Both the position numbers and the translations under genes were made by a program. A model generated the notes under the pieces. The model searched no databases, was not told the origin of the DNA, and worked only from the letters and a program-made list of their open reading frames with translations. A stretch of DNA of 64,000 nucleotides from Glandiceps talaboti (Eukaryota; Hemichordata; Enteropneusta; Spengelidae). The stretch is taken from positions 15,493,709 through 15,557,708 of the forward strand of contig NC_135565.1 of the NCBI RefSeq assembly GCF_964340395.1, in the 5' to 3' direction. The stretch's first letter is position 1. Every line of letters starts with the position of its first letter. Of the stretch, positions 19,614-63,522 are shown one piece after another.

Positions 19614-22600
19614 ATGGCCCAAATTAAAACCTACTGTCGTATGCGGCCTTCAGACACCTTGTCTCAGTGTTTTGATTGGGATGGCAGTAAGGTGTTTGTG
19701 AGGACACCAGAATCAGCATCAACTGGTAGAGTTCAAGGTCGTACTATCGATCAGGAGTTTAACTTTGGAACAGTGTTTGGACCCCACAGCACTCAGGATG
19801 ATGTGTTTGATACAGTTGCTAAAAGTATCGTTGATGGTATGTAATTAAAATTCACATGTACAAGCTGAATCTATATGTTTTCGGGATGTAATTTTTTCTG
19901 CATATTAAAAGGTACTCATAGTATTCTACTTACTGATGTACACTTAACTACCACTTACAGTGGACTGAACTCAAACCTGGTAATGTGGTAACACATGTGT
20001 AACTTATAGACGGTCTGTAATTTATTATTCATATAACAAATCTCAAGGAGATCCCTACTATGTAATCAACTGTTCTAACCGTGCAAGTAGCCTCGGACAA
20101 TGGGGAACTTGCGAACCTGCCATGTTGAATGTTGCATCATGGGAAATGTGATAATAAATAGTGATGAAAAAATATTGTAAACAATACTGTTACATTGTTT
20201 TTAACCACAAATAATCAATTCATAGTCACCCTGACCATTGTGGGAGGTTTTTTCACTGGTAGCTCCAGATTAGGTATTACGATAACCATGTATAATCCCA
20301 TAGTCCTTTGCGTCTGAGCATGTTCAGTCTGGATTGCAAGTTCCCTATTGTAATGTCATATAAGGCAGGCATCAACATTACAGTATATACTAGAATAGTG
20401 TAAGCAAGCTTTTATGTACTAAATATTTCCATGTGAGTACACTTTTATAAACTCATTGTGTACCAAAGTGTAGCCCTGGAAATCCACTGATTTGGTTCAT
20501 ATCGACATATACTTAACAAAGTAATGGAATGTCTCAAGAACATATCCTGGCTGCTATGGTAGAGGCATACTCTGTTATTTAGATTGTTTTTGTTTACTTT
20601 ATGAAAATCCAATGTTTTAATAATTTAGTGGAAGTAAAAGAAACATAGTGATATATATTGGTAGGTTAGTATACTCTGAAGGTGAAATTGCACATATCCG
20701 ACAAATAATAATGATGATGATGACACAAGACTCATTTGGTAATAGTGAAGTTACCATTATTGTAATCTACTTTTTGTAGCTAGATTCCAATAAGGTAACT
20801 TCACTATAAAAAAAAATGGTGTCAAGTATCAATTTCTATTCTGATACTATACTGTTCTAATACAGTAATAGGACTTTCACCTTTATGTTGCTTTGGTAGT
20901 TTTTCTGAGGTGTTTGTTTTGTCAAAATACATGTAATTTAGTCAGTGTTCCCCTTAACTGCAACAGTTAGTATGAAAACACACTGTATTCAACCTATATG
21001 TATTCATGCCTGGTCACATGACTGTTTATATGAATATTTAATGAGGTTTGTTTGAGCTATTGATTGGTTGAGTTCACAACAATAGAGATTGCACAGTATG
21101 ATAGGTGACAATACACAGTTAACAACTAACACCTTGCTTTGGTCAGTGTTTGGACATTTGTAAATCGTGCAAGTACCTGTACACAGAGCTTTAGAGGTAG
21201 AGTTACTGTTTTTATGAGTAGACATGTATATGTATATGGTCAGTTGTTTGTAGTTAGTGGTATAATGTCATCATAATTCCATGCAGTCCACCACCACAAA
21301 GGTACGGGTTGTCATATTAACAGTACAATTGTGGTTTATAAAACTTCCTGTAATGTTTTACCAGCAGTATTCAACTTGAATCAAGATAGTTATTTAGTAC
21401 TTGTATATTGCTGATATGCATTGTAACATGGTAAAATGTTTTGTAGTTGTTGGTAACTTGTTAGACTACCAGTGTATAGGGTGTTAAACTTACATGTTAC
21501 TTGTACACTGTACAGAACAATTTGTGAAACTTCTTGTACTGTTTGCTTTGATATTCCTCATGGTTATTATCATAGAAATTGTTCAGTTATTTTTCATGTG
21601 TATATATCATACGATATGTATGTTTCAATTCCAAAATAACAGAAAATTATAAGCAGTGAGTGAATCGTCTTTCTGTACGTGACACTGCAACTGTAAAATG
21701 TTTGTCATTTATTTCAATTATTTATACATGTAGCAACATTACAGGAAGGTATACATTGTGTCTTTTACCAACGTTAGCAATTGTAGAAATTATTAAAAAT
21801 TAGCACTCAAATTAATCAGTTATTAGCACAGTTTTATAATGTGAGGTTAATGATGGGAAATTATGCTATCAGACACAACTGTGTTGTTAACTGTTCCAAA
21901 CTCCTGGTTTATTAATTAATAAGTATAGATTTAATAATGCTATCTTTTCATTCTCCTCTGCATTTCAGGATTTCTCTCTGGATATAATGGTACAATCTTT
22001 GCCTATGGACAGACAGGTTCTGGTAAAACATTCACTGTAGAGGGTGGAGCTAGGAAATATTCAGATAGAGGACTGGCACCAAGGTATGGTGATATAGACA
22101 ATAGACACACAGACATGCATAATATATATAAACCCATATGCACCGACATATATACATATATACACTGAATATATGACATTTTTTTTTATGACAAAAACCA
22201 TATTTTCTTATTCACTGACACATACTTTGCCTTTTCTAATTTCCAACTACAGAGCCCTGTCCTTCATCTATAGAGCACTGGAAAGTCGTCAGGATGAAGA
22301 CATAAGTGTTCATGTGTCTTATTTAGAAATTTACCAAGAAAGTGGTTTTGATTTACTAAGTCCTAGTTCTAGACCTGGTAACATAGTCAATCATTTACCA
22401 AAGGTAAGTTACTAGTATGTTATGATTTTCACTAAGTCCTAGTTCTAGACCTGTTATCTATTTACCAGAGATAGGTTATGTTATGATGTACTAAGTCCTA
22501 GTACCAGACCTGGTTACATACTGCGGTAGTCAGCCATTTACCAAAGGCAAGTTATGTTATGATTTCCTAAGTCCAATAACTTTAGCCCTTGGAATGTGGT

Positions 22601-25600
22601 ACCTCAGGGTAGCCAATGAAAATGAAACTTCACATTTCTCACAGCGGTACAACTGTGTTGTCTGTAACTTGTGCACCTCACAGCCATTGAAAGTCTTCAG
22701 TTCACTTCGAACATTTGAGAGTCCCCAGGTTGCCAGTAACAGGTGTACATGTACCTCCCAGCATTCATTGGATGTATGTAATTTCTGTTAACTACTCACT
22801 CAGGTACATGTGGTAAAAGATCTTCAGAACATCTGTGTTGTTCATAACAGATGTACCTCCTGGCAACCAATGAGAATGTTTTATGTTCACTCGTTACACA
22901 GGTACATGTAGTAGAGGGCCCTCAGAACACCTGTATTGTTCGTAACTTATCTATGCACCTGGCAGCTGATGAACATGTTGCCCAGGAATTACTGCTGCAA
23001 GGACAAGCTAATAGGAAAGTTGCAGAAACTCCCATGAATCAACGGTCTTCCAGATCTCATGCAGTATTTACAATACACTTAACATCAAGATCACCAGGGT
23101 CAGAGGTCATCACAAGGTAGGTTGAAGATCATACAGTGGTAAACTCTTTATCAACAAAGTCATCAGGTGATATTTCTTACATGTAGATTTGTGTAACATC
23201 TCCATGGATAAAAAATATATGCATGGGAAGAGACAAACTTGCTAAAGACCTAAAAAGTAAGATAATGGTATTAGATTCAACAGATTTCAATTTGAGGTAA
23301 TGTCTTCTGATCACATTACTGGGACAAGCCATTAGCCAAGCAAGTGGACTTGTTATCAAAGAGTACCAATATTTACACATGTGATGATGGGCTCTTACAT
23401 AACACAAGTAAACAGCTGTAAAACCTCTATTCGGCCGGCTGCATGGACTGCAATTGAGGCAAACCTTATCTCCGTCTTATATCAGTTGTTATCAATTTAT
23501 TAGGCTATCATAAGTAACGCTACACACAGCTTTAGAGATGCAAACAACTTTTATGACACCCGTTTTCGCCAGGCAAGCCCGCAGGTTTGTTGCACTTGGA
23601 CCGCTAATGGTTTGTGACTGTCATGATAATTGAAACTCAAGTTTACAACATACTTGAAAGATGCTACAAGGTAGGCTGTCAACCGGTATATAAAAAGAAA
23701 CAGAAAATATATTATAGTATATTAGGGGTGTGGATACATGTAATGTGACATTGATATGAAGTGACATAATGACATAATGAACTCTTGACTCTGACCAGCA
23801 CTACATTGTGTATTGTTCACCATACATGCACATGTATATTAAATGTCAAGGGGAAAGCCACTCTAGGATATAAAGGTAAACAATGTATATTCATGACTCC
23901 TAAGTGCTTACATGTATGAATACGCATTGTGCATCTAACAAATATTCACGTTTGATCAGACCCATGCAGCAATAATGCAATACAGAAAGAACAGTAGAGG
24001 AGAAAAAGCATTTCAAATTCGTAATTTGAGTGAAATGTATGTAATGTGAAATCATGAAATGACTCTCCAGAACCCAAAGTTTATGAAAATACATCATTCT
24101 ATTTCCTGGAGTGGCATTACCCTTTGATATGACTGACTGGGGTTTTTTCCATATCAAAGATATAAATTCATATCATGACGTGTATTTTTATTTCAGGTCC
24201 AAGTTACATCTGGTAGATTTAGCTGGATCAGAAAGAGCTGCTAAAACTGGTATCACAGGTCAACAACTTGATGAAGCTAAATTTATTAATTTATCACTAC
24301 ATCACTTGGAGAGAGTTATCATTGCATTACATGACAGTGTTAAACAAAGTGAATCAAGACATCGAAGTAGCAGTGCTGGGTATGTGTAACATAGTCAAAC
24401 ATAACCAATCAATCAACCAAACATATTTAAAAGGGTAGCCCAGTTGGCCAAAGCCAATCTCCTCCAAGGCCCTCCTTGTAAAATAGTCCAAAGTCAGAAG
24501 ATACGAGATGTAAATTGAATGCTTCCATATAGGGGTAGAGAACATTTTAACGGAATGTAAATTGAAAATACATAGAGAAATAGTTATTCAGGTTATGTGT
24601 AACATAGTGAATCAAGACATCTGAAGTAGTTTTAATTTTACTATGATTTTTTATAGCATCAGTATCCACAATGATGTACATGTATATAGTGACCAAATAT
24701 ATAAATGTCTTAGATAAGTTAGAATGTAATAAAATTAGCACTGAAAGCGCTGATGCCTGAGTAAATAATATTTTGTTTGTGGTGTACATTATGCTGTCCA
24801 TTCTTTTCTTTCCTTGATTTCCTGTCAGATTGGTGGTATTTTGAGTGCACCATCTATTATTTTCTCTCCTTGATTTCCAGGCGGATAGGCAGTGCTTCCA
24901 GTACACGGTCCATTAGACCGCGATCTAGCAGTTTCCATGGCAGCAGTAGAGGTTACATTCCATACAGGAATTCGTTACTAACTATGGTTTTAAGGGACAG
25001 TCTTGGTGGTAACTGTCTAACAGCCATGATAGCTACAATATCCATACATGAATCAAATATGGGAGAATCTATCTCTACTTGTAGATTTGCACAAAGAGTG
25101 GCTTGTATTCGTAACCATGCAAGGTGAGTAGTTAGCTGGTGTTATAACACATCATTTTCATATTGCCTTCAGTGATTGGCTTAGATCATGTCATGTGATA
25201 TGGACTAGTGACCCATAGTGACCTCAATTTGCATAGAGCTTGCACTAGTCACATTCTACTTTCCCTAGGACACTATTCATGTACCACAGGATGTTTGTAA
25301 TAAGCTTTGACTAATGAAACAAATATGTGCCTGAGAATATATATAATTATTTAAATGTATGTCTTAATGTTAATATACAGTCGAAATGAAGAACTAGATG
25401 ACAGAATGGTTATAAAAAGATTGAGAAGGAGAATTGCAGAGTTAGAGGCTGAAATAGCATGTCTTAAAGCTGGTAACATAGAAGATGGTGATAATATACA
25501 GGTATATACAATATAAACAATGTTCTCCCAAGTTATCCCAAGTCAGTGGCTAGCCTAGAATAGACCAGAAATATTACATAGTATGTATACCTGGGATTAC

Positions 25601-35763: not shown

Positions 35764-36918
35764 CTAGGACATCCACGAAAATGTTTGATTTGTAAGTTTG
35801 GAGAATTCTGTGTTATATGGTCTGTAATACTCTCTAAGGAGATTTACAACAATTGGATCAACATCCGGGTGGGTTCGACCTTTCCTCTGATTCATGCAAA
35901 ATTCAGGAGTTTTAATACAATAAAAGCCCTTAGTTTCGTTAAAGTAAAATATGTTGTCAGTGAAATAGGGTTGAAGATTTAGAAATGATTCCACCTGTTG
36001 GATTGCTGACACTGGGTTTACTTTGAATTCACTACCGTCCACAATTAGCATTCTTTCAAGGCCGAAATACTCCAGCCAGTGTTTAATATAATCAGAATAA
36101 CGCCCTCTATATATTGTACCATGGGACGTCACTAGTTTCCTGTTATTGTCAAGAATTGTTGATTCAAATGTAGTATTTACTGTGTTGTTAAATTTGACTA
36201 TATTTTCCAGAAATATTTGTGCCTTTTCGTATTGGCTAGATTTCGGTTTAGATTTTAAAATGTCTTCGTACACCCCTTTAGTGGTAACTGTATGGATGTA
36301 GTCGGAGATGGCTCGTTCTACAGGATCACAAGCAACTAAGATAATCTTGGTGTCTACTGGAAGCTCGTAATATATCTCCTTTGCTGCTTGACCTCCGAAA
36401 TAACCTGGTGATCTTTCAATGGTCAGCTGCCCAGGTGTTGAAACTGGCATACGGTTAATATACCAATCTATTCCCTTCTTGTGATCGGGACTACCAAAGT
36501 AATGTACTTCTTCTTCCGCAACAACAATATTGGGATGAAAGTCAAGAAAAGTACCCAAGGTAGCTGTGCCGCATTTTTTGATTCCGGCAATAATCGCTCC
36601 TGGAAGTCTTTTCCGACTTACAGACACTTTCTTGTGTCTTTCTTGAATCTTTCTTTGGTCGACCTTTCCACTTATATCACCCAAGTCTGAGAGCCCTTTA
36701 GGTAAAGTTGGACTGGCGTACTCAGCGTCTGGTTTGCGTACAGTATTTTCCTTTTTTTGCCAGTCTTCATTGTTGTCATGGCAAGGTGTTGGACGGGCTT
36801 GGATTTCGCCGATACCCTTGATAGATATTATATGAATCTTTCCTATTTTTAAATAGCAGATAATGGAAATCACAGAAACCAGGAAAGCCAACAACACAAT
36901 CCTTGTTCTTGACTTCAT
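35764..36918 (-). CDS. Heparan sulfate 3-O-sulfotransferase-like protein, copy A
   Basis: One open frame of 384 aa with no intron in the coding part. It is a type II membrane protein: short basic N-terminus, hydrophobic anchor at residues 8-25, stem, then a sulfotransferase domain from about 105. Seen: PAPS-binding P-loop region GIKKCGT (112-118), the EVHYFG segment (137-142) matching the catalytic Glu/His region of HS3ST enzymes (EVHFF), ERSPGYF, a 3'-phosphate motif ending ERAISDY, KGFYC and KGRTHPDVD. The family transfers sulfate from PAPS to glucosamine in heparan sulfate in the Golgi. Two features are odd: the usual Arg of RDP is Cys197 (ACDPVER), and the family's GTR is GTA. Copy B shares both, so acceptor or cofactor use may differ. 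Members usually have an intron in the coding region. Confidence 0.87.
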   Translation of the reverse strand: MKSRTRIVLLAFLVSVISIICYLKIGKIHIISIKGIGEIQARPTPCHDNNEDWQKKENTVRKPDAEYASPTLPKGLSDLGDISGKVDQRKIQERHKKVSVSRKRLPGAIIAGIKKCGTATLGTFLDFHPNIVVAEEEVHYFGSPDHKKGIDWYINRMPVSTPGQLTIERSPGYFGGQAAKEIYYELPVDTKIILVACDPVERAISDYIHTVTTKGVYEDILKSKPKSSQYEKAQIFLENIVKFNNTVNTTFESTILDNNRKLVTSHGTIYRGRYSDYIKHWLEYFGLERMLIVDGSEFKVNPVSAIQQVESFLNLQPYFTDNIFYFNETKGFYCIKTPEFCMNQRKGRTHPDVDPIVVNLLREYYRPYNTEFSKLTNQTFSWMS

Positions 36919-36965
36919 CGTGTATTATTGTCAATGAATAATGTCACGTGACGAAAAATAGATGC

Positions 36966-40297: not shown

Positions 40298-41500
40298 CTA
40301 GGACATCCACGAAAACTTTTGATTTGTAAGTTTGGAGAATTCTGTGTTATATGGTCTGTAATACTCTCTAAGGAGATTTACAACATTTGTATCAACATCC
40401 GGGTGGGTTCGACCTTTCCTCTCATCCATGCAAAATTCAGGAGTTTTAATACAATAAAAGCCCTTAGTTTCGTTGAAGTAAAATATGTTGTCTGTGAAAT
40501 AGGGTTGTAGATTTAGAAATGATTCCACCTGTTGGATTGCTGACACTGGGTTTACTTTGAATTCACTACCGTCCACAATTAGCATTCTTTCAGGGCTAAA
40601 ATACTTCAACCAGAGCTGAATGTAATCTGAATAACGCCCTCTATATATCGTACCATGGGACGTCACTATTTTCCTGTTATCGTCAAGAATTGTTGATTCA
40701 AATGTAGCATTTACTGTGTCGTTATATTTGACTATATTTTCCAGAAATGTTTGTGCCTTTTCGTATTTGCTAGATGTCGGGTTTGATTTCAAAATGTCTT
40801 CGTACAGCCCTTTACTGGTAACTGTATGGACGTAGTCGGAGATGGCTCGTTCTACAGGATCACAAGCAACTATGATAATATTGGTGTCCGCTGGCAGCTC
40901 GTCGTATATCTGCTTTGCTGCTGTGCTATCTCTGAAATAATCTGGTGATCTTTCAATGGTCAGCTGCCCTGGTGTTGAAAGTGGCATACGGTTAATATAC
41001 CAATCTATTCCCTTCTTATGATTGGGACTACCAAAGTAATGTACTTCATCTTCCGCTGCAACAATATTGGGATGAAAGTCAAGAAAAGTACCCAAGGTAG
41101 CTGTGCCACATTTCTTGATTCCGGCAATAATAGCTCCTGGAAGCCTTTTTCGACTTTCATATACTTTATTGTTTCCTCCTTGAACCATTCTTCGGGCCTT
41201 TCCGAGATCGTTTATAGCACCCAAGTCTGTGGACCCTTTGAGTATAGTCGGACTGGTGTACTCGGTGTCTGGTTTGTGTATGGATGTATTAGGTGGGATC
41301 AATGGTTTGTGTAAAGTATTTTCCTTTTCTCTCAAGTCTTCATGATTTTCATGGCAGGGTGTAGGACGGTCTTGGATTTCGCCGATACCCTTTATAGACA
41401 AGATGTACATCTTTCCATTTTTTGAATAGCAGATGATGAGAATCACTAACGAAATCAGGAAGCCCAACAATATAATCTTAGTTCTCGTTCTCAGCTTCAT
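40298..41500 (-). CDS. Heparan sulfate 3-O-sulfotransferase-like protein, copy B
   Basis: One open frame of 400 aa, paralogous to copy A along its whole length and 16 residues longer in the stem. It has the same type II anchor (about residues 9-25), P-loop region GIKKCGT (127-133), EVHYFG segment, ERSPDYF and ERAISDY. Cys213 replaces the usual Arg of the RDP motif, as in copy A, so this change predates the duplication. The stop codon (40298-40300) overlaps the target-site duplication of a LINE fragment; the insertion re-created the same stop, so the protein end is unchanged. The preserved frame and domain argue for a working gene, although the 3' UTR is now LINE sequence. Confidence 0.86.
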   Translation of the reverse strand: MKLRTRTKIILLGFLISLVILIICYSKNGKMYILSIKGIGEIQDRPTPCHENHEDLREKENTLHKPLIPPNTSIHKPDTEYTSPTILKGSTDLGAINDLGKARRMVQGGNNKVYESRKRLPGAIIAGIKKCGTATLGTFLDFHPNIVAAEDEVHYFGSPNHKKGIDWYINRMPLSTPGQLTIERSPDYFRDSTAAKQIYDELPADTNIIIVACDPVERAISDYVHTVTSKGLYEDILKSNPTSSKYEKAQTFLENIVKYNDTVNATFESTILDDNRKIVTSHGTIYRGRYSDYIQLWLKYFSPERMLIVDGSEFKVNPVSAIQQVESFLNLQPYFTDNIFYFNETKGFYCIKTPEFCMDERKGRTHPDVDTNVVNLLREYYRPYNTEFSKLTNQKFSWMS

Positions 41501-41589
41501 GATATACTGTTGTCAATGAATAATGTCACGTGACGAAAAATAGATGCAATATATATCTCTCGGAAGGCAAATAGCACGGTCACTGTATT

Positions 41590-45430: not shown

Positions 45431-48400
45431 ATGATGGGCAAGTACAGTGTATCTTCCTTGCTGATAGTTTTATTCCTCATTACTACATCATTACTTCTAA
45501 AGACAACTTTGTCACAGCAGACACGCCCACCACATGTTGTGTTAATAGTCGTAGATGATTGGGTAAGTGGAAAGTCATTTATCATAATAAGAGTGAAAAT
45601 GTAGTAATGTAAGTTTTTGTATAGCAATCTCCCAAACTATGGCCAAAGTGCTTTTTTTTGTTACAGCTGGCATGGCGCTGTCATAGCGCAATGTCCTTTA
45701 TGCTCCCTCAACTCTCTCGAAAGCATACAATCCATTGCTACCATTGCATATAGAATTAAAGCACTCACATTGCAACCTCTATCCAACCAAGTCCTAAATT
45801 ATACAGCTTGGTTGACTAGTTTAGATCTTGGCTAAAGACTGCAGCCATTCAGAAATAAATGGCAGCACCATACAGAGGCTCAAACCTGCAACCTACAGAT
45901 TTCAAGCTGGCTGAGGTCACATCCAGGGCAAAGAATCAAATATAATGGAGATTCACTTATATAGGGGTTGTTAGGGTTTGTAATTTGAATACTACATTTG
46001 AGTTATCATGTTACCTAATTATTGATGTATGTTATGTACATATGAAGATCTATAGAACAAGTGATCTCTGTAAGTATACAATTGTACATATGTCTATCAC
46101 TGTATCAGTTGTCATGTACAACTATAAACTCTAATCCACCACTTTAATGAATATACAGTGAACAAGTATACATAATGACTTACCATTAGAGGGCAGTCTT
46201 TACTGGAATTATACTGTATTGCTGAGGTATCGTACATGATATTAAAGTGTCTGTTTTTGTTTCCCAACAAACACCTAGGGCTGGGACGATGTCAGTTTCC
46301 ATGGATCTGATCAGATACCTACACCAAACATTGATCAGTTAGCACATAGTGGCGTTATACTAAACAACTATTATGTACAACCAATCTGTACTCCAACCAG
46401 AGCTGCCTTGATGACTGGACGACATCCAATACATCTAGGTAAGTGAACTACTATCTCCAACCAATCTGTACTCCAACCAGAGCTGCCTTGATGACTGGAC
46501 GATATCCAATACATCTAGGTAAGTGAACTACTATCTCCAACTAATCTGTACTCCAACCAGAGCTGCCTTGATGCATACCAAAATTTGCCAACATTTTGTG
46601 ATGGAATGGTGTCCAAAAAGACAATTGATGTCACTTACCAAACAACTTGGATATCTTGTCATATTGTTTTCTGCTAGGTTTACAACATGATGTTATCTAC
46701 GGTGCCCAACCATACGGACTGCGACTTAATGAAACTACAATGGCACAATACCTACAGCAATTAGGATATACAACTCATATGGTAGGAAAGGTAAGTTAAT
46801 GGAATTCATTGTCACTTTTAGAGAGAATATGTGAGATAAGTGTATAAGGGTATATTATCTTTGATCTCAATTAACACTCTAACAAAAGTTCAGACAGTCT
46901 ATACCACCACTATCAATAGATTTACTTCACCTACATGTATTGCCATATTTCTTTGTAATATTTCTTTTAATTTTTAATATATGACTATAACTCTAATATT
47001 TCATTTCATTTCGTATATAAATTATTTTCATAAGTAAGTAAGTCTTAATTATCAGAGAGAAATTTTAAGCAGTTGTGTAAAATGTGTATAGCAAGTGGTC
47101 AATTGTGTAAAATGCATGTAAAGAATAACGTACTTAAGTAACCTAATAACTATTGATTACATGTAGTGATAAAATTACCTTTATGGAATGTGGTTTCAAG
47201 CAACTATGTAACTTTTGTCCAAATCATTCTGACGTCATCCACATAATTTACATGCAGGTATGCAATAATTTTTTCGGTATTGCACTGCAGTGAAAATACC
47301 ACTAGTATGCGGTGCACCAGTGCAAGTAATCTCTGGTACATATGTTATAATAGTTTGAAATTGTGTCTATTGCAGTGAGCTGAAACATTGCTTGCCACTG
47401 CAGTATTTTCAAATCAGTATCTGAATTTATTCTTGGATTTAATCACATTGTATTATTTTTTGTTCACCAGTGGCATTTAGGTTTTTTTACTAAAGAACAC
47501 ACTCCAACATACCGAGGCTTTGAAAGTCATTTTGGTTACTACTGTGGACATGAGGACTACTATGATAGACTATCAGGGGAAGTAAGTTTTATATTCTGTT
47601 ATACTAAATTATGAATTACCATTCACGTCCTGAACATACCAATTTGGGTCTGTACAATATTAATATTGTACTAGCTGCAATGGAGACATTTTTATTTGTC
47701 AAGCAGCAAACGATACCAAGTATGTATGTTCAACTATCCTAGGATCAACTGAGACGGGGCATCAAACTACCTAACATCTACAATTGGCTGATTATATCGC
47801 CACCTAGTGGTCAGTTGTAACTACAGAATTTGTCATTCTGATGAGGATCATTGACTGAGACAGATAAAAAGCTCAATGCTGAAAGACTTTGAACTATTTG
47901 TGTGGTATAACCTTTGTAAATCATATGTTGAATTACTTGTAAAAATCTGTAGTGCCTATAATAAGTGATCACTTTTATCCATAGTTAGTGCAGCGACAAG
48001 TTTAGATCTTGAGCTTGCACTAGGTTTTGAATCTGACACCACATTAGTTTGATAACTTGCTGCAATGGCAGTGTTCATTGATGCAGTAGTAGTGTTCATT
48101 GATGTAATGGCAGTGTTCATTAATGTAATGGCAGTATTCATTGATGTAATGGCAGTGTTCATTGATGTAATGGCAGTGTTCATTGATGTAATGGCAGTGT
48201 TCATTGATGCAACAGTAGTGTTCATTGATGTAATGGCAGTGTTCATTGATGCAATGGCAGTGTTCATTGATGTAATGGCAGTGTTCATTGATGCAATGGC
48301 AGTGTTCATTGATGTAATGGCAGTGTTCATTGATGCAGTGGCAGTGTTCATTGATGCAGTGGCAGTGTTCATTGATGCAATGGCAGTGTTCATTGATGTA

Positions 48401-51400
48401 ATGGCAGTGTTCATTGATGCAATGGCAGTGTTCATTGATGTAATGGCAGTGTTCATTAATTATACAATATCACAAGCTGGATCATACATGTTGTGTACTG
48501 TTACAATTGCCATACACTAATTCATGGCATGGTTTGGGAATGATTATATTTTGTGTGACACTATGTGTTGTATTTGATTTATGACAGGGTAAATACTGGG
48601 GATATGATCTCAGAAGAAATGGTGTGTTAGATTACTCTACATATGGTCAATATTCAACTGATTTGTACACTTTTGAAGCACTGAATGTTATCGGAACCTA
48701 TGCCAACTCTTCAAAGGTATGTTGTTTTTACTTTTTTTTTTCCAAATGCTATCATTACAGCCTAATACCAGATAATAACATACAGACAGCTAAATATCGT
48801 ACTATTCTCTCAGATTTGTAATGTTTTGTTATTGGCTCCTTTAGTTCAGCTTAATCTCAGCAGTATATGTAGGATTTTCTGAAAGCACTTTGATATTTTA
48901 AAACCATAGAATTGCCACTAACGAGTTTCTGAATACCCATTTTCATTGATTTAGATCTGTCATATTTGATGAAAGGAGAATGGGAGGGGGGGGGGGAGAG
49001 GGGGTGTTATCAAACACCTTGACATAGATATAAAAACAGTCTGATTCTTGCACAATAAACAAACAATGACATGTTTTTGTCAGTCAAGGGCAATCTTTTA
49101 AACAGAAACATTATATTTCCCATCAGCCTTTGTTCCTGTACTTGGCTCATCAAGGAGTGCATGCTGGGAATTCAATTTATCCACTTCAAGCTCCTGCTAC
49201 TTACACTAAAAGATTTCCTAATATACAGAGTGAGAAGAGAAAACTTCTAGCAGGTATGTCATGTGTATTGACAATAAATGAAAAATAAATTAGCAATTAG
49301 TTTGTCAAAAAAAGTTAACCTGTCAACATTAAGACTAGAATATTGTCATGAGAGATTTATTTAGATACCATTGCCAAATATATTCCTTCGTTCAGCCAAG
49401 GACAATTCGAGTGATCTCAGGGTCTTATCACTATGAGTCACCAGACTGGTACTGACAAAAACTTAGGTCACAAGATTTTTCTGGCTGAATGAAGAAAAAT
49501 ATTGGGGAATATACCTCCTCAAGCATATTTTTATGAAAATTTGGATAGTGGCATTCTAGAACATTTCTCAGTTATATTTTGAGCACCACAGAACTAGTGA
49601 TATAGACAGGTTGTTGTGACATAGAATGACCAGGGTATATAATCCATATTTTCTGTTCAAAGACAATAACTTGGCTTGGGAATGGTACTGTAATACATTA
49701 TATACCAACAGGAATTTCAATGTCAAATAATTACAATCATTATATATGTACCAGAGATTACTTGCACTGGTGCACACGCATACTAGGGGTGTTTTCACTG
49801 CAGTGCAATACTGAGAACATTATTGTGTACCTGCATGTAAATGATATGCAAATGAGATGTGATCATTCGAAATCACGTGATTGCTCTATGATTCTTGTGA
49901 TTTTTTAATGGGGAATTTGCCATTTCAGATAAACATGTGTAATAATAACAGAACGCCATGCAATGTGAGTTCCAGTGTGGGTACATGGGAGTATCTGCAC
50001 TTGTGTTTGCAGTTTTTTCTGCTGCACTGTAACTCGCTACATATGTGAAAGTACGGGCACAGAAAAAACTGCAAGTACACCACACTTGCACTCGCATGTC
50101 AGTGGGTTCTGTCATAGCTTGTATCATATGTCTAATAATATTTCTATTATTTCAGGAATGATAGCAGCTGTTGATGATTCTATAGGTCTTATTGTCCAGG
50201 CTTTAAACGCATCTGGCATGTACAACAATTCTGTTATTATCGTAACCACTGACAACGGTGGCCCTACTCATGGGTATGATGGAAACGCTGCATCAAATTG
50301 GCCATTAAGAGGATGTAAACATACACTATGGGAAGGTGGTGTCCATGGTAACGGTTTTATTCATAGTCCACTATTAAGCAAACCAGGACGTGTATCATCA
50401 GAAATGATGCATGTCAGTGATTGGCTGCCTACAATATATCATGTTGCCGGTGGCAACATCAAGGATCTCCCTGGCAACCTAGATGGGTTTAATTTATGGG
50501 ATACACTCTCTCAGTAAGTAGTTCACAAGGAATCACAAAAACTGACATTCTTTTGAAAAACAGTCATCACCAGAATTAGGTGATTTTAAAACAACAATTG
50601 TGTTTTAAGATAGAATGTTTGTCAGGGTATTCTACCATAAAACAATATTTCTGAAACTCGAAATTATTGAAGTCTGGCCAAACCTTGCCACATAAAGGCT
50701 TGTTTCACATTTCTCTTACATTCTCATTTTCAAGAAATTTGACTATATTTTATTTCTCATATAATTTAGACAGTATTCAGTAGCCATTTTAGATTTACAG
50801 ATGGTTTGATTTGATATGATTTTGATCCCTATTTCGAATCTGAATTTTTTAAACTTGATTTTATCTCCTAATGGGTTTGAGTGTTCTAGTACAAAGTAAC
50901 AGCAAAAGTTTGAGATTTTAATATCCGAGACACATAAATACATCACCAACTACCTGGGATCTATGATCATCTGTTATGGCCTACCCAACGACATCACATC
51001 CAGTCCCAATCTGCTACTATGCCCTCTAGTGGCAGCGAGTAAATGCAAGAGGTTCTAATCGAATGCTTTTGTAAACACTTTTGTATTTGTGGTGGTGTGA
51101 AATTGGCTAAAAACAATTTTCAGAATACATTTGTTGTTTTGATTTGTATTTACAGAGGTATCCCATCTCCAAGAACTGAAATTCTTCATAACATAGACCC
51201 TATATCCAACACTGCAGCACTAAGGGTTGGTGGTTATAAGATTGTGATTGGAGAAGATGCTGGGGGACATTATGATGGTTGGTATAAACCTGATGAAATA
51301 TATGAAGGTAAGAAACCCCCCTCCACCAAACCCTTCTTTTCCCCACACCCAACCACCTCCACCTTTGCACATTCACTGACAAAAAAAGAATATATACATG

Positions 51401-52438
51401 TTCATGATATGCCATTGTGAATAATGTCACTGACTGATGCTGCACCTGATCTCCTTTTTCTAACTTTGTCTTTCTCAAACTTCCTTACCTGTAGTTGCAA
51501 TCATTGTCATCAGACTATTCATTGTATCCTTATCTGTAATCGCTTCGAGCAGGATCCCTCTGGATAAGTCCTTCTTGAATCCTTCTATGATAGACTACAC
51601 GGCTGCCACCAGTATAACACTAGGTATCCCAATCAAACGCACACACCTTAATCTTTGATTCTTTCATTTTCTAATCTGCCTACTGATATCTGATATACTG
51701 GGATTTGTCTGTCTTTTCATGGTTGTTTGAAAATGTGACTAAGTATTTTGGTTTGAAATGACATAGTCTTACTTGCTCAGATACAATCATGACATCAAAT
51801 TTTACAGACGGAAGCCATTTATTCACGACATCTAATTATACAGATGTACTCCAGACATTCATGTAATCAAACTGAAAATAACCCTACCGGTAATTTTTTT
51901 CACAACTTATTTTTAGAGAAATTCCGGAGTAAGAGGAATGCTAGTATGAAATCTAAGCTGACGATAGACTGTGGACCTAAACCTGTAAATGCCTCAGAGA
52001 ATTGTAAACCGGCAGAGAAGCCTTGTTTATTTGACATTGAAAGAGATCCATGTGAATATGTAAATTTAGCAGATAAGTATCCAGGTAAGAAAGTGTTGTT
52101 CATATGCAAATTTAACTGATATGTATCCAGGAGAAGTGATTTTGATATGCAAATTTTAAGTTAATGGTACAATATGAGAAAATATTGTTAAACTGAGTCA
52201 AAGGTAATTATGTCAATTATTACATATAATTTTTTCATATTTTTTTGTTTTCCTTTACTGTGTAGATGTACTGCAGATGTTACTCTCCAAACTACAGTCT
52301 TATAATAGCACAGCTGTCCCACCAATGCATCCAGGTCTTGATCCGGCAGCAAATCCGGCAATTCACAATGGAGCATGGGTTCCATGGGTTAACTCAACAT
52401 CAATGGAAGACATTAGAAAATATGGAAGATATTTCTAA
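45431..52438 (+). CDS. Arylsulfatase B-like sulfatase, copy 1
   Basis: Coding exons 45431-45562, 46279-46438, 46678-46790, 47471-47581, 48588-48716, 49127-49253, 50156-50513, 51156-51307, 51917-52084, 52266-52438; GT-AG throughout, 540 aa, close to the 533 of human ARSB. The N-terminus is a signal peptide. Metal-binding DD is at 42-43; the formylglycine signature CTPTR starts at Cys81, with RAALMTGR after it. Also seen: [42 protein letters not shown] and LFDIERDP. Sulfatases of this group remove sulfate from sugars, typically N-acetylgalactosamine 4-sulfate in dermatan/chondroitin sulfate, in lysosomes or outside the cell. ARSI/ARSJ-type specificity cannot be excluded. An acceptor (TTTGTTAG, ending 45418) upstream of the ATG implies a noncoding first exon. 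ATG at 45434 is an alternative start. Confidence 0.94.
45700..45915 (-). mobile_element. Second copy of the same SINE-like element
   Basis: Shares ATACAATCCATTGC, CTCACATTGCAACCTCTATC, ATTATACAGCTTGGTTGACT and the B-box-like GGCTCAAACCTGCAACC with 12745-13045. Lies in intron 1 of arylsulfatase 1. Confidence 0.6.
46379..46575 (+). repeat. Two-and-a-half unit 80-bp version of the same array in arylsulfatase 1
   Basis: Units start at 46381, 46461 and 46541, an 80-bp period. The first is the real exon 2 end with donor at 46439. The second is near-identical with a perfect GTAAGT donor. The third breaks off after the ALM codons. Confidence 0.95.
48062..48457. repeat. 21-bp minisatellite, about 19 units
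   Basis: Unit GTTCATTGATG(T/C)AATGGCA with few changes, inside intron 4 of arylsulfatase 1. Because 21 is a multiple of three and the unit lacks stops in some frames, long seven-residue-repeat open frames appear on both strands; these are not genes. Confidence 0.95.
49371..49509. mobile_element. Same ~130-bp MITE, copy 2
   Basis: TTGCCAAATATATTCCTTCG to GGCTGAATGAAGAAAAATAT, with a similar core (CACTATGAGTCACCAG, ACTTAGGTCACAAG). Lies in intron 6 of arylsulfatase 1. Confidence 0.72.
49745..50120. mobile_element. ~385-bp dispersed element, copy 2
   Basis: Counterpart of 25580-25965. A separate fragment of its left part appears inverted near 47280-47345. Lies directly upstream of exon 7 of arylsulfatase 1. 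Confidence 0.65.
52070..52160 (+). repeat. Decayed duplication across the exon 9 donor of arylsulfatase 1
   Basis: GATAAGTATCCAGGTAAGAA at the true junction recurs about 52 bp later as GATATGTATCCAGGAGAAG, each followed by an ATATGCAAATTT phrase. The copied donor is destroyed. Confidence 0.7.
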
Positions 52439-55890: not shown

Positions 55891-58360
55891 ATGGGCAGAA
55901 TGAACAAATACCAAGCAGCACTACTTGTAGTAGTTTTAATTCACGTTACAAGATTGATATCATCGTCTCCCTCACAACAGAAAACACAACCACATATTAT
56001 ACTAATAATTGTAGATGACTGGGTAAGTTTTTAGATTTATTGATAACACCATTAAAGGCATGGATACTGAGGACTGATTAACATACCGGGATTGTGGCTG
56101 TTTATTGACTGACTGACTGACTTACTTACCCGATAGTATTACTTGCCTACTATAGCTATTTTGTGTTGACCGACTGGCTGACTGGCTGCCTCCCACACTG
56201 ACATCTCTTAATACTTTACTCTTACTATCAAGGGTTGGGGTGACGTCAGTTTCCATGGTTCTAGTCAGATACCAACACCAAACATTGATCAGTTGGCATA
56301 CAGTGGTGTCATACTAAACAACTATTATGTACAACCGTTGTGTTCACCGACTAGAGCAGCCTTGATGACTGGACGATATCCAATACATCTAGGTAAGTGA
56401 ACTACGTATGTACAACCAATCTGTACTCCAACCAGAGCTGCCTTGATGACTGGACGACATCCAATACATCTAGGTAAGTGAACTACGTATGTACAACCAA
56501 TCTGTACTCCAACCAGAGCTGCCTTGATGACTGGACGATATCCAATACATATAGGTAAGTGAATTACTATGTTCAACCAATCTGTACTCCCACCAGAGCT
56601 GCCTTGATGACTGGACGACATCCAATACATCTAGGTAAGTGAATTACTATGTTCAACCAATCTGTACTCCCACCAGAGCTGCATTGATGACTGGACGATA
56701 TCCAATACATCTAGGTAAGTGAACTACGTATGTGCAACGAATCTGTACTCCTACCAGAGCTGCCTTGATGACTGGACGACATCCAATACATCTAGGTAAG
56801 TGAACTACGTATGTACAACCAATCTGTACTCCCACCAGAGCTGCATTGATGACTGGACGATATCCAATACATCTAGGTAAGTGAACTACGTATGTGCAAC
56901 GAATCTGTACTCCTACCAGAGCTGCCTTGATGACTGGACGACATCCAATACATCTAGGTAAGTGAATTACTATGTTCAACCTATCTGTACTCCCACCAGA
57001 GCTGCCTTGATGACTGGACGACATCCAATACATCTAGGTAAGTGAATTACTATGTTCAACCAATTTGTACTCCCACCAGAGCTGCCTTGATGACTGGACG
57101 ACATCCAATACATCTAGGTAAGTGAATTACTATGTTCAACCAATTTGTACTCCCACCAGAGCTGCCTTGATGACTGGACGACATCCAATACATCTAGGTA
57201 AGTGAATTACTATGTTCAACCAATTTGTACTCCCACCAGAGCTGCCTTGATGACTGGACGACATCCAATACATCTAGGTAAGTGAATTACTATGTTCAAC
57301 CAATCTGTACTCCCACCAGAGCTGCCTTGATGACTGGACGACATCCAATACATCTAGGTAAGTGAATTACTATGTTCAACCAATCTGTACTCCCACCAGA
57401 GCTGCCTTGATGACTGGACGACATCCAATACATCTAGGTAAGTGAATTACTATGTTCAACCAATCTGTACTCCCACCAGAGCTGCCTTGATGACTGGACG
57501 ACATCCAATACATCTAGGTAAGTGAAATACGTATGTACAACCAATCTGTACTCCAATCAGAGCTGCCTTAAGCTTGATAACTGGACTGGACAGTGTTCAT
57601 AGTGTAGTTATGACAGAACCTTTGTTTCAGTAGACATGTCAGTAATGGTAATGACTCACATATACAGAAATTTTTTGATGTCTCTGCTGCTTATTGTGTG
57701 AAAATGTTATATTGTCTAACCGGCCCACCCCAATGCCCACGACTCCCCCATTATTCAGTTTGATATTGTTGACATAAGGTTTACAGCACGATGTGATAAA
57801 TCCGGCGGCTCCATATGGTTTACCCTTGAATGAAACGACACTGGCTGAATATCTACAACGCTTAGGTTATACCACTCACTTAATAGGGAAGGTTAGTATC
57901 TCCAGGTAATGGGTTATACCACTCACTTGATAGGGAAGGTTAGTATCTCAAGTATCTGAGTTATACCACTCTCTTGATAGTTGGGTCCAGAGGTATCTAC
58001 AAAATGCGGATATTATGGTAAATCAGACAGACATGTCGACAGCGTTCTGTTTGAAGAATATGACACCACGTTGGCATTTATTTATAACCACGCGCTTCTA
58101 CATTTTCACTGATATGTACCCATGTATGATTTTGTGATGTAACTTTATGATTAGTGCTCGCGTGATGGAATTATCCTTAATGTGGTGTAACATTACGATG
58201 TGCTGCAGTAAGCGTGATATCATATTTCTTCTTTTCGTATTGTTGTGATATGTTGTAACATAATGTCAGTTAAATTCCATGTCAATGTAGTTGACCTAAC
58301 ATGTTCTCCCGGTGTATGTATGTATGTATGTATGTATGTATGTATGTATGTATGTATGTA

Positions 58361-58393
<33 letters not shown>

Positions 58394-61300
58394 TGTGTTT
58401 GTTGTGTTGTGTTGTGTTGTGTTGTGTTGTGTTGTGTTGTGTTGTGTTGTGTTGCGTTGCGTTGTGTTGCGTTGCGTTGCGTTGCGTTGTGTCGTGTTGT
58501 CTTATTTTATGTTGTTATGTTATGTTATATTTCGTCATATTTTGTTATGTTATAATGATTATATATACATGTCTTCTCGTCACAGTGGCATTTAGGTTTT
58601 TATACCAAGGAGTATACACCGACACGTCGTGGTTTTGATTCACACTTTGGTTATTACACTGGAGGCGAAGATTATTATTTCAGAGTATCACAGGTAGTTG
58701 TACCACAATAACAATAAAATAACACAGTGAATATATGATCATGTGATGTGGCCATCATATATAGAAAAAATGGCGATAGGCAAGTTAAGAAGCTGTCACC
58801 ATAGCAAATGTACAAGTTCTATTTAAACACATTTGTTTACTTCTTTCTTTTCATGATTTTTCGGGATTTACAAAACTCAAACCCAGTCCAGTTTTCTCTG
58901 GTTGAAAGAAGAATATGGCAAAAGAGCACATAATCTCAAAAATGGTCAAAATAACGATTTTTTTGTGCATCTCCACCTTAATATATATTTTTCTAAAACC
59001 TAGCATGGCATGGCGACGCTATATACCGATTTCCAGTATAGTAATCATATTTTGAAAAACAAAATGATGTTCAGACAACTTTGCTTGCAATCATGTGGAT
59101 TTCATCGTTTTGTCGACTTGTCAAAATTTCGGGTATAACATATATATTCGGGTTTATTGCTTAATTACAGTAATATTTAGATCGTACGATACATAATAAA
59201 CTTGTTTTATTTCTTGTAGAACGTGGACAATTATTTTGGTTATGATATGAGAAGGAATGGTGAATTGGACTACTCTACGTATGGACATTATGCAACTGAT
59301 TTGTTCACTACTGAAGCAGTGAAAGTGATAGAACAATATTCCAACTCAAATGAGGTTTGTAGTGTTTCTATTCATCTGTATGTTGCAGATTAATAATATA
59401 TTCACTGGGTTTTTTTAATTCAAAACCTACTATACACTGTCTACAGTATACAATAGGATTATAAAGCATAGACCTTAGTAATAACACGTCGTAGTACCAC
59501 ATAACAATTTAATATCACATGATAAAATGCCATATCAGCATGGCGTGACGTCGTGCTGTATGATATACCTATTACCAAATTAACACAAAATGACTGATAA
59601 AAGTATGATATCTAGATGCTATGATAGAATAGTATACTGTATGTCGTCTGATCATGATGATATCACATCCATGTATTATGACGTGATCATTCAAAATAGT
59701 ATAAAGAAATAGTGACAAATCTTTGTTCATTCTTTGATAGCCACTGTTCTTAGACATATCACACCTTGGTGTTCACATTGGTACCACCCTGGCGCCACTA
59801 CAAGCACCTGACAAATACACCAAAAAATTTCCCAATATTCAGAGTGAGGAGAGAAAGATATTTGCAGGTAAGAATAACGTCATTAACTCTGACACTGACC
59901 TTGACCCTAACCCTAACCCAAAGGGGTTCCTGTTTCATAAATGCTTCCTGTGACTTTGATAGGTTGGAAAATGCAATAACACCATAACACATAAGGAATT
60001 ACGTTGTATCATGAATGACTTATCAAAATATACACGGCTGGATAACAGAGCTAGACAATTAATTTTAATCGCAATATGTTGTTTCAAACTGCTCTAGCTG
60101 TAACCATGGTAACTGGAGTATTATTTATTCAACCAGACAACCACAATGCATTCACAGAAATTTGTTAAAATACCGATGATGTGTAAGAAGTACAACCAAC
60201 ACTATATTTACTGAAAATTGTTAAAATACCTATAATCATACATTCTATTATCACATAAATACGTGCATATCTTCTACTGTGTGACGTCAAACAGGGGGTG
60301 ATTTCAGACCATATCACCCCTGTTCTACCGAACTATTTTTTCTCCGTACTGTTCGAGTGTTCGTGCAATCCCTTGCTACGATCAAGTTTATCGTAATAAT
60401 TATGTGCTTTCAAAATGTAAATGCATACATTACGTTACATATATCCTTGGATGGCATGAGTTTGATACGTAGAAGTACTTTTATTTTTATTTGGTACATT
60501 TTATTCTATTTAAAAATCACGTAGATTATCGATGTAGCAGCCTGCAAGCTTACTTCCGGTTTTCCGTCGAGCTCAGATCTCTGAACTTACACAACCCGAG
60601 AAAATATGATTAAAATGACGGCACAAAAGTCGTATTTAGACAATTCTACTTACGTTTTAAACTAAATTCGATATTACATGTACATCGCAAGATTATAACC
60701 GATCATTTTGGTTGAGAAACCACAGAACAGTATGACCGGTACCGTGTTTGTAGTAAGCTTGACCTCGCGACAGGTCACGCGATTATGTAATTTGCATAGC
60801 CGTCGGGCGCCATTTTTTAATACCCGATGAAGAATATAGTGCGATGAAATGATGCAGTATTCGTAAAATACGAATGAAAATTTTAGAAAAATACGGGGGA
60901 ATACTTAGTTATGTGATAAATATATAATTCCATGAAATCGTAAAACTAACATTGATTTCATGGGATTATATATAAATATCAACTAGCGGTAGACTAGATT
61001 GTATCCTTCGGTAGTGCAATAACAAGTTGACACCATGACTGCGCTGGGGTGCTGATTTTAGGGTGCTTATTCAAAACTCTATTTTAGTGGATTTACTGTA
61101 CCATAATATGTTACAAAAATATGTTTACTCAAAGGTGATTTAATACTACTTGGGTGTAGTATATTACGAGTAAATCATCTTACAAATATTTCAACACACG
61201 TTTCAGTTGCAGCTTTCAATAAATGGTGACTAATTTAAAATTTCAGCGATTACTATGAGCTGGAAAGTCAGAAATAATAAATGTATTTCTTTTCAGGGAT

Positions 61301-63522
61301 GATGGCAGCCGTGGATGAATCAGTAGGTCACGTGGTACAAGCATTGAAAGCTAACAAAATGTACAGCAATTCCATTATAATTGTTACCAGTGACAACGGG
61401 GGATTGACCAATAACCGCCCCGATGGTGCTGCCTCGAATTGGCCATTACGAGGAAGTAAGAATACCTTATGGGAAGGTGGAATACGTGGAAATGCCTTCA
61501 TTCACAGTCCGCTATTGAAACGACCAAAACGAGTGACGTCAGAAATGATGCACGTGTCTGATTGGATGCCAACATTATACCATGCGGCTGGTGGTGACGT
61601 CACCAATCTGCCAGATAGCTTAGATAGCTATAATCTATGGGACACTCTGTCTGAGTGAGTATTGGTTTACCCCATGAAATAATTTTTGTTTAGTTTCTTA
61701 ACCCTTGCAGTTGATATATGTATTAGCTTATATTCAGAATTAAGCCCATTATAATTTTGGGTGAGTGATATGATAGGTTATAGTATTTATTTCAACTACA
61801 TCGGCAACTATGATCAAGTGATCAAGTCTGTCTGACACTAATTTATGATAATTTTATTTACGATAAGTAATTTATGATAAGTAATTTATGAGAATCTTGT
61901 GCACAATAGCAAATGTGTTAATGTAATTTTACCGCATTCCTAATTATATATCATGATCATTGTACACTAAATTACAATATTCAGTGTATCTATTGTGTCC
62001 ATAGAGGGACGTCCTCACCAAGAATAGAAATTCTTCATAACATTGACCCAATAAATCAGAACGCAGCGTTACGAGTTGGTAGTTATAAGATTGTTGTTGG
62101 CAACATTGATTATAATGGGTGGTACAGACCAGATCACTTGGCAGGTAATTAGTTTTATGATTTGTTCCTATAGTTTAAGATAAGTGTAACCTTATCACAT
62201 GGCAAGTGGATATTATGGTTTTGGAAATCAATACAATGATGATTGGTGTAACTTGCTCACGTGACATGAATATTGTAGGGTGGACATGATTAGGGCATCC
62301 TGGGAAGGCAATGACAATAATGAATGATTGGTGTAGGTTGTTTTTGGCAATGAAGTGATGACAATATTAGTATTGCTATGGTAATAACGATTCTGACAAA
62401 CGTTATCATATCCTATCGTTCTCCCAATAATATATTTTACTTCAGAGGACTTTCAGAGTAAATGGAATTCGACCGCTGGTTCCCCAGTGATAGTAGATTG
62501 TGGGAAAAAACCAGGCCATGCAATGGAAAACTGTAAACCTGAAGAGAAGCCATGTTTGTTTGACATTGATAACGACCCTTGCGAATACAATAATTTAGCC
62601 AACAAGTATCCAGGTGAGAAGTTTGGTTATTAAGCAAATTTAGATTAATATTATCTTGGTAGGAAACTTAGCTAATGTGTAAATTTACATGATTAAGTAG
62701 CCCTGGCTTTAAGGACCTTCAAGTTGGTTAATATCTTAAGCATCCAGGTGAGAAGTTGGTTGTTTTTTAAATAGATGATTGTTAAACTTGGTTTATGTAT
62801 AATTTCATGATTAAGTAGCCATGGAGCTAGTTAAAACCCTTGATTAATATCTGAGGTGTCCAGGTGAGAAGCTTGGATATTATTTTACAAAAAGATTATT
62901 AAGTATCCAGGTGTGAAGCTTTGTTAATATGTAAATGTTGATGAAAAGTATCCCGTAAGCTTAGAAGCTTGGTTAATATACAAATTTGGATGACAAATAT
63001 TTAGATAAGTAGCTTGGTTAATATGTCCGTCGAGATGTCATCTAATATTGTTCACATGTATCAAATAGAAGCAGCTTAATTTCCATAATCTTTAAGATGA
63101 TATGTTAATATATAAAGACCCACTGTGTTGAATGACGTCACCATTGTGAACCGTTGGAAAGTTTTTTGTAGATGACGTCACCTTTATGAACGATTGGAAA
63201 ATAATTGTAGACTGCCTATGCTTAGATTCACATATTAAAGCAATTCGTAGATTTTTATTTGCTTTCTCTTTTTGACAACCGAATTACAATTTTATTAACA
63301 TAACTAAGAGAGAGTGAATCTGAGAAAACAGTTATTGATAATGAATGATAATTCACCTATATTTGTTTTCACCCTTTCCTTACAGATATTGTAGAGGGAC
63401 TGTTATCCCGACTACAAGCCTACAATGCCACGGCTGTTCCACCACTGAACACTGATATTGACCCGGAAGCAAATCCAGCAAAACATAATGGTGCATGGGT
63501 ACCATGGAAGAAACCTACATAA
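55891..63522 (+). CDS. Arylsulfatase B-like sulfatase, copy 2
   Basis: Coding exons 55891-56022, 56233-56392, 57779-57891, 58586-58693, 59220-59354, 59741-59867, 61297-61654, 62005-62144, 62446-62613, 63386-63522; 525 aa. Every intron phase matches copy 1, and exons 1-3, 6, 7 and 9 have identical lengths, so this is a tandem gene duplicate. It has a signal peptide, metal-binding DD (42-43), the formylglycine signature CSPTR at Cys81, LIGKWHLG, TSDNGG, NWPLRG, LWEGG, SDWMP and LFDIDNDP, so it should be active. The role is as for copy 1: hydrolysis of sugar sulfate esters on glycosaminoglycans or similar polymers. The intron after the active-site exon contains about 15 extra copies of that exon's end and donor. 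The true donor must be the first one (56392), because every longer version meets TGA within two codons. Confidence 0.94.
56336..57575 (+). repeat. About 16-unit, ~80-bp tandem array of the sulfatase active-site exon end plus 5' splice site
   Basis: The first unit is the real exon 2 end (to 56392). Units follow every 80-81 bp, each containing codons for (Q-P-I-)[12 protein letters not shown]-(H/Y)-P-I-H-L and then GTAAGTGA plus about 20 intron bases. All but the last, decayed unit (about 57540-57575) keep a perfect GTAAGT donor. Confidence 0.95.
57867..57981 (+). repeat. 47-bp triplication across the exon 3 donor of arylsulfatase 2
   Basis: TTATACCACTC(A/T)CTT(A/G)ATAG starts at 57867 (true exon), 57914 and 57961. 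The second unit keeps GGGAAG and the GTTAGTATCT donor; the third has lost the donor. Confidence 0.9.
58316..58510. repeat. Compound microsatellite (GTAT)n-(GT)n-(GTGTT)n
   Basis: Successive GTAT, GT and GTGTT/GCGTT runs in intron 3 of arylsulfatase 2. Open frames here are repeat artefacts. Confidence 0.95.
62601..62975 (+). repeat. Degenerate repeats of the exon 9 donor of arylsulfatase 2
   Basis: AAG(T/C)ATCCAGGTGAGAAG(C)TTGG-like phrases recur near 62605 (true), 62738, 62853, 62901 and 62946 with decreasing fidelity. The intervening sequence also repeats (GGTTAATAT, ATGATTAAGTAGCC). Confidence 0.75.

Follow-up and report, generated by a model that had tools for sequence, protein, structure and literature searches.

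Copies of an exon end and its splice donor in a sulfatase gene family of Glandiceps talaboti: a probably tolerated minisatellite

What is an intron doing with fourteen extra copies of the end of the preceding exon, each carrying its own strong 5' splice site, and how could such an array be tolerated? The question is raised by a sulfatase gene, called gene B here, in a 64,000-nucleotide stretch of the enteropneust hemichordate Glandiceps talaboti (the window), which our search of the species' own genome placed at C18:15493709-15557708 of the 590-Mb assembly. Gene B is an ARSB-type sulfatase by its full-length similarity together with a C-x-P-x-R signature, which reads C-S-P-T-R in exon 2. Its best match in the PDB is 1fsu (E 7.6e-115, residues 33-521), PF00884 was matched on the frame of exon 7, and the NCBI protein P0004 is identical to our model from residue 4 on. 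Gene A is its tandem neighbour and paralog; the two genes have ten exons apiece in matching structures, and the gene A product is 99% identical to an NCBI protein of G. talaboti. The features of both genes are collected in Table 1.

Some observations concern the locus more generally. The donor of gene A exon 4 is ambiguous (47471-47590), as protein P0001 has W-S-V and our model stops three codons sooner. Intron 4 of gene A holds a 21-bp minisatellite of 19 copies (48057-48457) in which several frames are open. Beside the sulfatases lie two long open frames on the minus strand (35764-36924 and 40298-41512) that look alike by eye, the former carrying a Pfam sulfotransferase domain.

Table 1. Coordinates of the two sulfatase genes and of exon-end copies (positions in the window unless a contig or another stretch is named)
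Feature	Position	Strand	Remarks
Sulfatase gene A, tandem paralog of B	45431..52438 (3' end approximate)	+	exon model
Gene A, extra units after exon 2 donor	46439..46598	+	one complete with donor, one partial
Gene A, exon 9 end duplication	52056..52156	+	46-bp x 2.3, copy without intact GT
Sulfatase gene B	55891..63522	+	10 exons, 525-aa model; NCBI protein P0004
Gene B, exon 2	56233..56392	+	C-S-P-T-R active-site signature; true donor 56392/56393
Gene B, 14 complete 80/81-bp units	56393..57517	+	GTAAGTGA, then about 72 nt copied from the end of an exon 2
Gene B, degenerate last unit	57518..57570 (right edge approximate)	+	no donor of its own; starts at donor of 14th unit
Gene B, exon 3	57779..57891	+	weak acceptor 57778/57779
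Gene B, exon 3 end duplication	57865..57980	+	47-bp x 2.5, donor included
Gene B, exon 9 end and downstream copy	62604..62757	+	copy with donor (62738-62757)
P0007, 29-bp array	C13:4184158-4189641		L013 5659-8001, continuing in L017

Anatomy and coding consequence of the array

The original prediction described sixteen units. The array is real, and it consists of 14 complete units; sixteen is reached only if the count includes the exon proper and the broken unit at the end. TRF places it at 56353-57569 (period 80, 15.1 copies, 96% matches), and an 18-mer probe allowing up to 3 mismatches found 17 matches in the window where 0.12 were expected, 15 of them in the array and two in gene A. With 14 complete tandem units of 80/81 bp, the array lies within the 10-100-bp unit range of minisatellites; it opens the 1386-nt intron 2 and spans the exon-intron boundary with one donor per complete unit, as does the 6-16/IFI6 type. 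All 14 complete units are bounded by CTAG/GTAAGTG (ATAG in one). The strong donors beyond the true one, predicted to number about 15, are indeed identical but number 14, the degenerate unit having none, which brings the GTAAGTG donors at the array to 15 with the true one. Each of the 15 reads TAG/GTAAGTGA, GTAAGTGA being the 8 nt with which the intron begins, and the next donor follows 80/81 nt downstream in 13 of the 14 complete units, with none after the last. Reverse-strand open frames overlie the array.

Among the 14 units, 10 of 87 alignment columns vary and none of these falls within the 8 donor columns. Given this overall variation, invariant donor columns are expected by chance with P=0.36, and their invariance is no evidence of selection on the unit donors, the variation being too low to decide the point. 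Units 9-14 are mutually 99-100% identical, units 5 and 7 do not differ, and two rare variants occur in both unit 4 and unit 6; together with the degenerate unit at the edge, this pattern points to unequal exchange.

Splice-site strength was scored with matrices built from the 18 introns of genes A and B only. All 15 array donors score 11.6 with a matrix from the other introns of the locus, where leave-one-out scores of the 18 authentic donors range from 4.8 to 12.6. The claim that no unit has a good internal acceptor was borne out: ranked among the 2485 AGs that the window holds in its first 45 kb, the CTCCNACCAG/AG candidates of the complete units lie at about the 51st-84th percentile, a range that in mid-array covers the higher-ranking AGs. 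The TAG/GT acceptors that end the units lie at the 64th-67th percentile (scores -0.3 to 0.1) and have no clear pyrimidine tract. The weak acceptor CTCCCACCAG that each unit was said to hold is found in ten of the 14 complete units, the others reading CTCCAACCAG (two units) or CTCCTACCAG (two units). The predicted 38-nt segment ahead of the donor is defined in all 14, and as a microexon it would have no special support, since the internal acceptors rank like ordinary AGs. The authentic acceptor of gene B intron 2 is itself weak (-2.7, leave-one-out), and true acceptors of the locus score down to -2.9 (leave-one-out), so that acceptor scores exclude little.

Use of a later donor was expected to add G-K-stop after the exon. 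Translation from three of the 14 (56473, 56554 and 57517) gives exactly this, with the stop at codon 100 of the gene B model, and the same would follow for the remaining 11 because each retains the first unit's GTAAGTGA. The NCBI product P0004 equals the model with the plain 56392-to-57779 junction. Judged from the sequence, use of the later donors as decoys appears unsupported. Protection from poly(A) sites by bound U1 was also considered and was rejected, AATAAA and ATTAAA being absent from intron 2 of genes B and A.

Exon-end copies and probable exchange among the paralogs

Two units used as query against the species' own genome gave 23 matches, some of them beyond the window. The stretches at these matches, with neighbouring stretches, contain eight further sulfatase paralogs, ten in total with A and B; in the C22 stretch no sulfatase paralog was found. 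The exon chains of P0007 and of others are incomplete. Besides genes A and B, exon-2 copies are present in P0003 (one), P0013 (two, the second without an intact donor) and P0011 (one, without donor), P0041 has a separate copy that resembles its own exon alone, and remnants of 16 and 19 nt are seen in P0006 and P0007, respectively. No exon-2 copies were found in P0009 and P0012, which have the intron at the same place, and we conclude that the sulfatase intron 2 pre-existed the array. The junction GTAAGTG/AACTAYTATGTAC, partly decayed, is legible by eye in seven of the ten paralogs (A, B, P0003, P0006, P0007, P0011 and P0013), and this shared sequence suggests that the seven genes arose after the first duplication.

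Other exon ends have been copied in the same family, a point that the original prediction did not contain. The end of exon 3 is copied in gene B (47 bp) and in P0007 on contig C13, where an array of a 29-bp unit, TAAGGTAAGTT, begins with the final 4 bases of the exon and extends over 5.5 kb in about 190 copies. In the joined L013 and L017 stretches of P0007, 85 AAGGTAAGT words occur at 5660-11348, the last of them beyond the end of the array at 11142. The same region (17084-17129 of the joined stretches) also has a short 12-bp repeat, TAGGTAAGTAAG, with donor-like words. Copies of the exon 8 end were found in P0003 and of the exon 9 end in A, B, P0003, P0011 and P0041, the last as a 65-bp x 2.6 repeat with ACAAATATCCAG (L012 524-693) that is one of the 14 donor matches counted below. 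In all five genes the exon-9 copy is closest to its own gene's exon, so these duplications are probably separate events.

The units of gene B were predicted to repeat the end of their own active-site exon. They do repeat the signature segment, and all 14 encode an open active-site peptide (ending I-H-I in one unit), but they are closer to the exon of the neighbouring paralog, a resemblance not foreseen in that prediction. They encode I-C-T-P-T-R, as do gene A and P0011, whereas gene B exon 2 encodes L-C-S-P-T-R, and the unit DNA is 85-90% like the exon 2 end of A and 77-79% like that of B, the compared stretch opening with 8 nt that are intronic in one sequence but exonic in its counterpart. 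The arrays of A and B are mostly 91-96% identical to each other, and the copies of exon 2 that lie in introns of B, P0003 and P0013 resemble the exon of gene A most closely.

Exons 2 of A and B are unusually similar: their identity is 86%, against 62-73% for all other exons, and where both genes encode the same residue, synonymous differences are seen in 11 of 47 codons of exon 2 and in 147 of 305 codons of the other exons (Fisher p=0.0015). Of the 22 differences between the two exons 2, eight cluster at exon positions 105-126, between near-identical flanks, and exon 2 of P0003 combines an A-like first part with a B-like second part. The similarity, the low synonymous difference, the cluster and the P0003 mosaic all point to gene conversion among paralogs as the likely cause, and this conversion would have been focused on the array-bearing stretch.

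Donor and acceptor edges compared

To compare the two kinds of exon edge, a query of 50 nt of exon and 14 nt of intron was used for each donor, copies being looked for in the 600 bp lying towards the intron, and acceptors were treated as the mirror image. The 78 introns of the ten paralogs comprise 18 whose models were made by hand, 36 whose edges were adjusted to GT/AG or GC/AG, 16 that are approximate and eight paired across a missed exon; no edge was removed for low complexity. Nearby copies were found at 14 of 78 donor ends and at none of 78 acceptor ends (Fisher p=6.4e-5). Arbitrary 64-mers of the same stretches have a base rate of 163/3408 (4.8%), which the donors exceed (binomial 1.8e-5). 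Across thresholds 28-40 and distances 300-1200 the donor count stays at 12-14 and the acceptor count at 0; the result is unchanged at score thresholds 28-35 and at three distances, and is 12 versus 0 at a threshold of 40 (p=3.1e-4). Eleven of the 14 donor alignments cross the exon edge, and three end at or before it (P0003 exons 8 and 9, P0011 exon 2). On the donor side, queries offset by -50 and -20 give a rate of 18%, those at -80 give 7.7% and those at -110, in the exon, 2.6%; in the intron the rate is mostly 4-9%, with a maximum of 11%. On the acceptor side it is 0-1.4% near the edge and rises to 14% about 220 nt into the intron, and the imbalance therefore concerns the edge only.

The imbalance is a property of the sulfatase paralogs. 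The 14 matches sit in seven of the ten genes (sign test p=0.016), which as paralogs are not independent, and rank tests over all edge scores give p=0.02-0.09. The sole non-sulfatase controls, a KIF6-like gene and a TTC17-like gene on the minus strand whose exon ends are inexact tblastn ends, show no bias (donors 2/25, acceptors 2/25), and in the whole window the difference is not significant (7/43 versus 2/43, p=0.16). For these reasons, namely the relatedness of the genes, the unbiased controls, the value for the window and the weak rank tests, we do not claim a donor-only rule genome-wide. Local duplication is common in the window (26 clusters), and a clear acceptor-side copy at 22787 in the KIF6-like gene speaks against any rule that would strictly confine copies to donors. 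Introns 3 and 5 of that gene hold degenerate copies of the exon 3 end, the exon 4 start and the exon 5 end (22492-22554, 22787-22848 and 24597-24629).

Probable origin and tolerance of the array

Our preferred reading, which we consider probable, is that the array is a tolerated minisatellite, produced by recurrent duplication across 5' splice sites and spread among paralogs by gene conversion, with the first donor giving the right mRNA. A tandem duplication reaching from within exon 2 to about 8 nt past its donor would have taken place before several of the paralogs split, the copies would later have been homogenised and passed among paralogs through gene conversion or unequal exchange, and unequal crossing-over in gene B would have expanded them to 14 complete units. 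Such an array would leave the exon and its first donor intact, and the normal mRNA would join 56392 to 57779. We expect the first donor to be used because it is made and committed first, adjoins the real exon and matches the NCBI product. Occasional transcripts from later donors would end in G-K-stop and be removed through nonsense-mediated decay, and the array could thus be close to neutral. The donor bias may reflect a selective filter, in which a copied donor keeps the correct site first while a copied acceptor would place a wrong site first; this fits the recurrence of duplications at exon ends, none having been found at exon starts in the family. Exon definition alone would treat both ends alike, so that the imbalance, if confirmed, would argue that it matters which site is synthesised first. 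The same imbalance would, however, also result from a mutational bias at donors, and in vitro work reportedly favours the intron-proximal of two equal donors, opposite to what tolerance requires. A more far-reaching reading, which we hold to be rather unlikely, joins recurrent donor-specific duplication, success of the first-made donor and purging of acceptor-side copies with a traceless re-splicing of errors, each unit being a potential RS-exon bounded by AG/GT, and an exchange of exon ends among paralogs by way of the copies.

The likelihoods that we attach to the different readings overlap and do not sum to one. That an ordinary minisatellite of a repeat-prone genome came to overlap a donor by chance is unlikely, if far from negligible: TRF gives 42 rows (some overlapping) in the 64 kb, the base rate of nearby copies is 4.8-6.2%, the two other genes of the window are unbiased, and the genome-wide excess of three AGGTAAGT at 20-49-bp spacing (2290 against 873 for the reversed control, counted as matches and not as arrays) is near that of the single AGGTAAGT word close to these genes (25 against 13 for the control word). 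Chance alone accounts poorly, however, for donors of the family that are copied well above the base rate next to 78 acceptors with no nearby copy, although the paralogs share ancestry, and for a copy rate whose peak is centred on the donor. The proposal that the array regulates output has the 14 extra donors divert transcripts to G-K-stop isoforms sensitive to nonsense-mediated decay, so that array length would tune the amount of enzyme. The 15 identical donors are among the strongest of the locus, the later ones lead to the stop at codon 100, and the weak true acceptor could favour slow commitment; yet the invariance of the donors is no greater than expected, the number of complete units varies from 0 to 14 among paralogs in no visible order, and P0004, as a weak hint, has an NCBI name without isoform tag and the sequence of the plain junction. 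We find this regulatory role improbable.

Each CTAG/GTAAGT is formally also a recursive splice site, another point absent from the original prediction, and each TAG/GTAAGTG could act as a ratchet point in a stepwise removal of the array, or in the repair of a wrong donor choice, that would be traceless in the mRNA. AG and GT are juxtaposed in 14 of 14 units with a donor 80/81 nt downstream in 13, and Drosophila ratchet points are likewise juxtaposed AG/GT, a cryptic RS-exon being required (PMC8605326). The acceptor context of the unit TAGs nevertheless looks poor, at the 64th-67th percentile of AGs, although some true acceptors of the locus score lower still. The same study assigns the exon junction complex a role in suppressing regenerated sites (PMC8605326), and intron 2 measures only 1.4 kb where ratchet points have been described from long introns, though a broader range of intron sizes is reported as well (PMC10156609). 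Recursive removal is on balance very unlikely. Hardly more credible, and to us slightly less so, is a role of the intronic copies as templates for the active-site end of exon 2 (C-T-P-T-R/C-S-P-T-R, H/Y), within and between paralogs. The clustered A/B differences, the two halves of P0003 exon 2 and the open peptide of every unit would suit such a reservoir, but the gene B exon has kept its own sequence beside 14 templates, and conversion may be a mere by-product.

The nearest precedent for the tolerated minisatellite that we favour, going by its title, is the human 6-16/IFI6 minisatellite, which Turri, Cuin and Porter (1995, NAR 23:1854) reportedly described as providing multiple splice donor sites across an exon-intron boundary. 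It reportedly has 12-bp units, with more than one donor used in mRNA. The gene B array resembles it in spanning the boundary and in carrying donors in its units, and differs from it by units of 80/81 bp that include active-site coding sequence and by a product that uses the first donor. The donor-only bias of exon-end duplication is the testable part here.

Tandem duplication of AGGT-containing segments has been described as a source of new introns (Rogers 1989; Hellsten 2011), along with 24-bp arrays in fission yeast, all as cited in PMC4974935. The likeness to gene B lies in a duplication bounded by AG/GT whose removal as whole units is silent, but AGGT duplication creates an intron and that of gene B was already present. 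In earthworm metallothionein genes, the passages available describe intronic minisatellites and exon-4 duplications that are absent from transcripts (PMC12783039); exon copies and minisatellites lie in introns there as in gene B, where they would likewise be silent in the mRNA, and donor arrays such as that of gene B are not described in these passages. Among the open-licence papers listed by our searches, none was seen to describe a gene family in which duplication of exon ends is confined to donors.

If first-made donors do win while acceptor-side copies are purged, the 14-unit array of gene B and the 190-copy array on C13 would be extreme cases of it and would offer a natural test of whether donors are chosen on a first-come, first-served basis. 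Should the donor-only pattern hold genome-wide, it would provide a natural experiment on how the spliceosome chooses among identical donors, present in 2 to about 190 copies, and would reveal how far the survival of a duplication depends on the order in which its parts are transcribed. The sulfatase family also carries a warning for annotation, since exon-like intron segments that are open and encode an active site may be silent copies.
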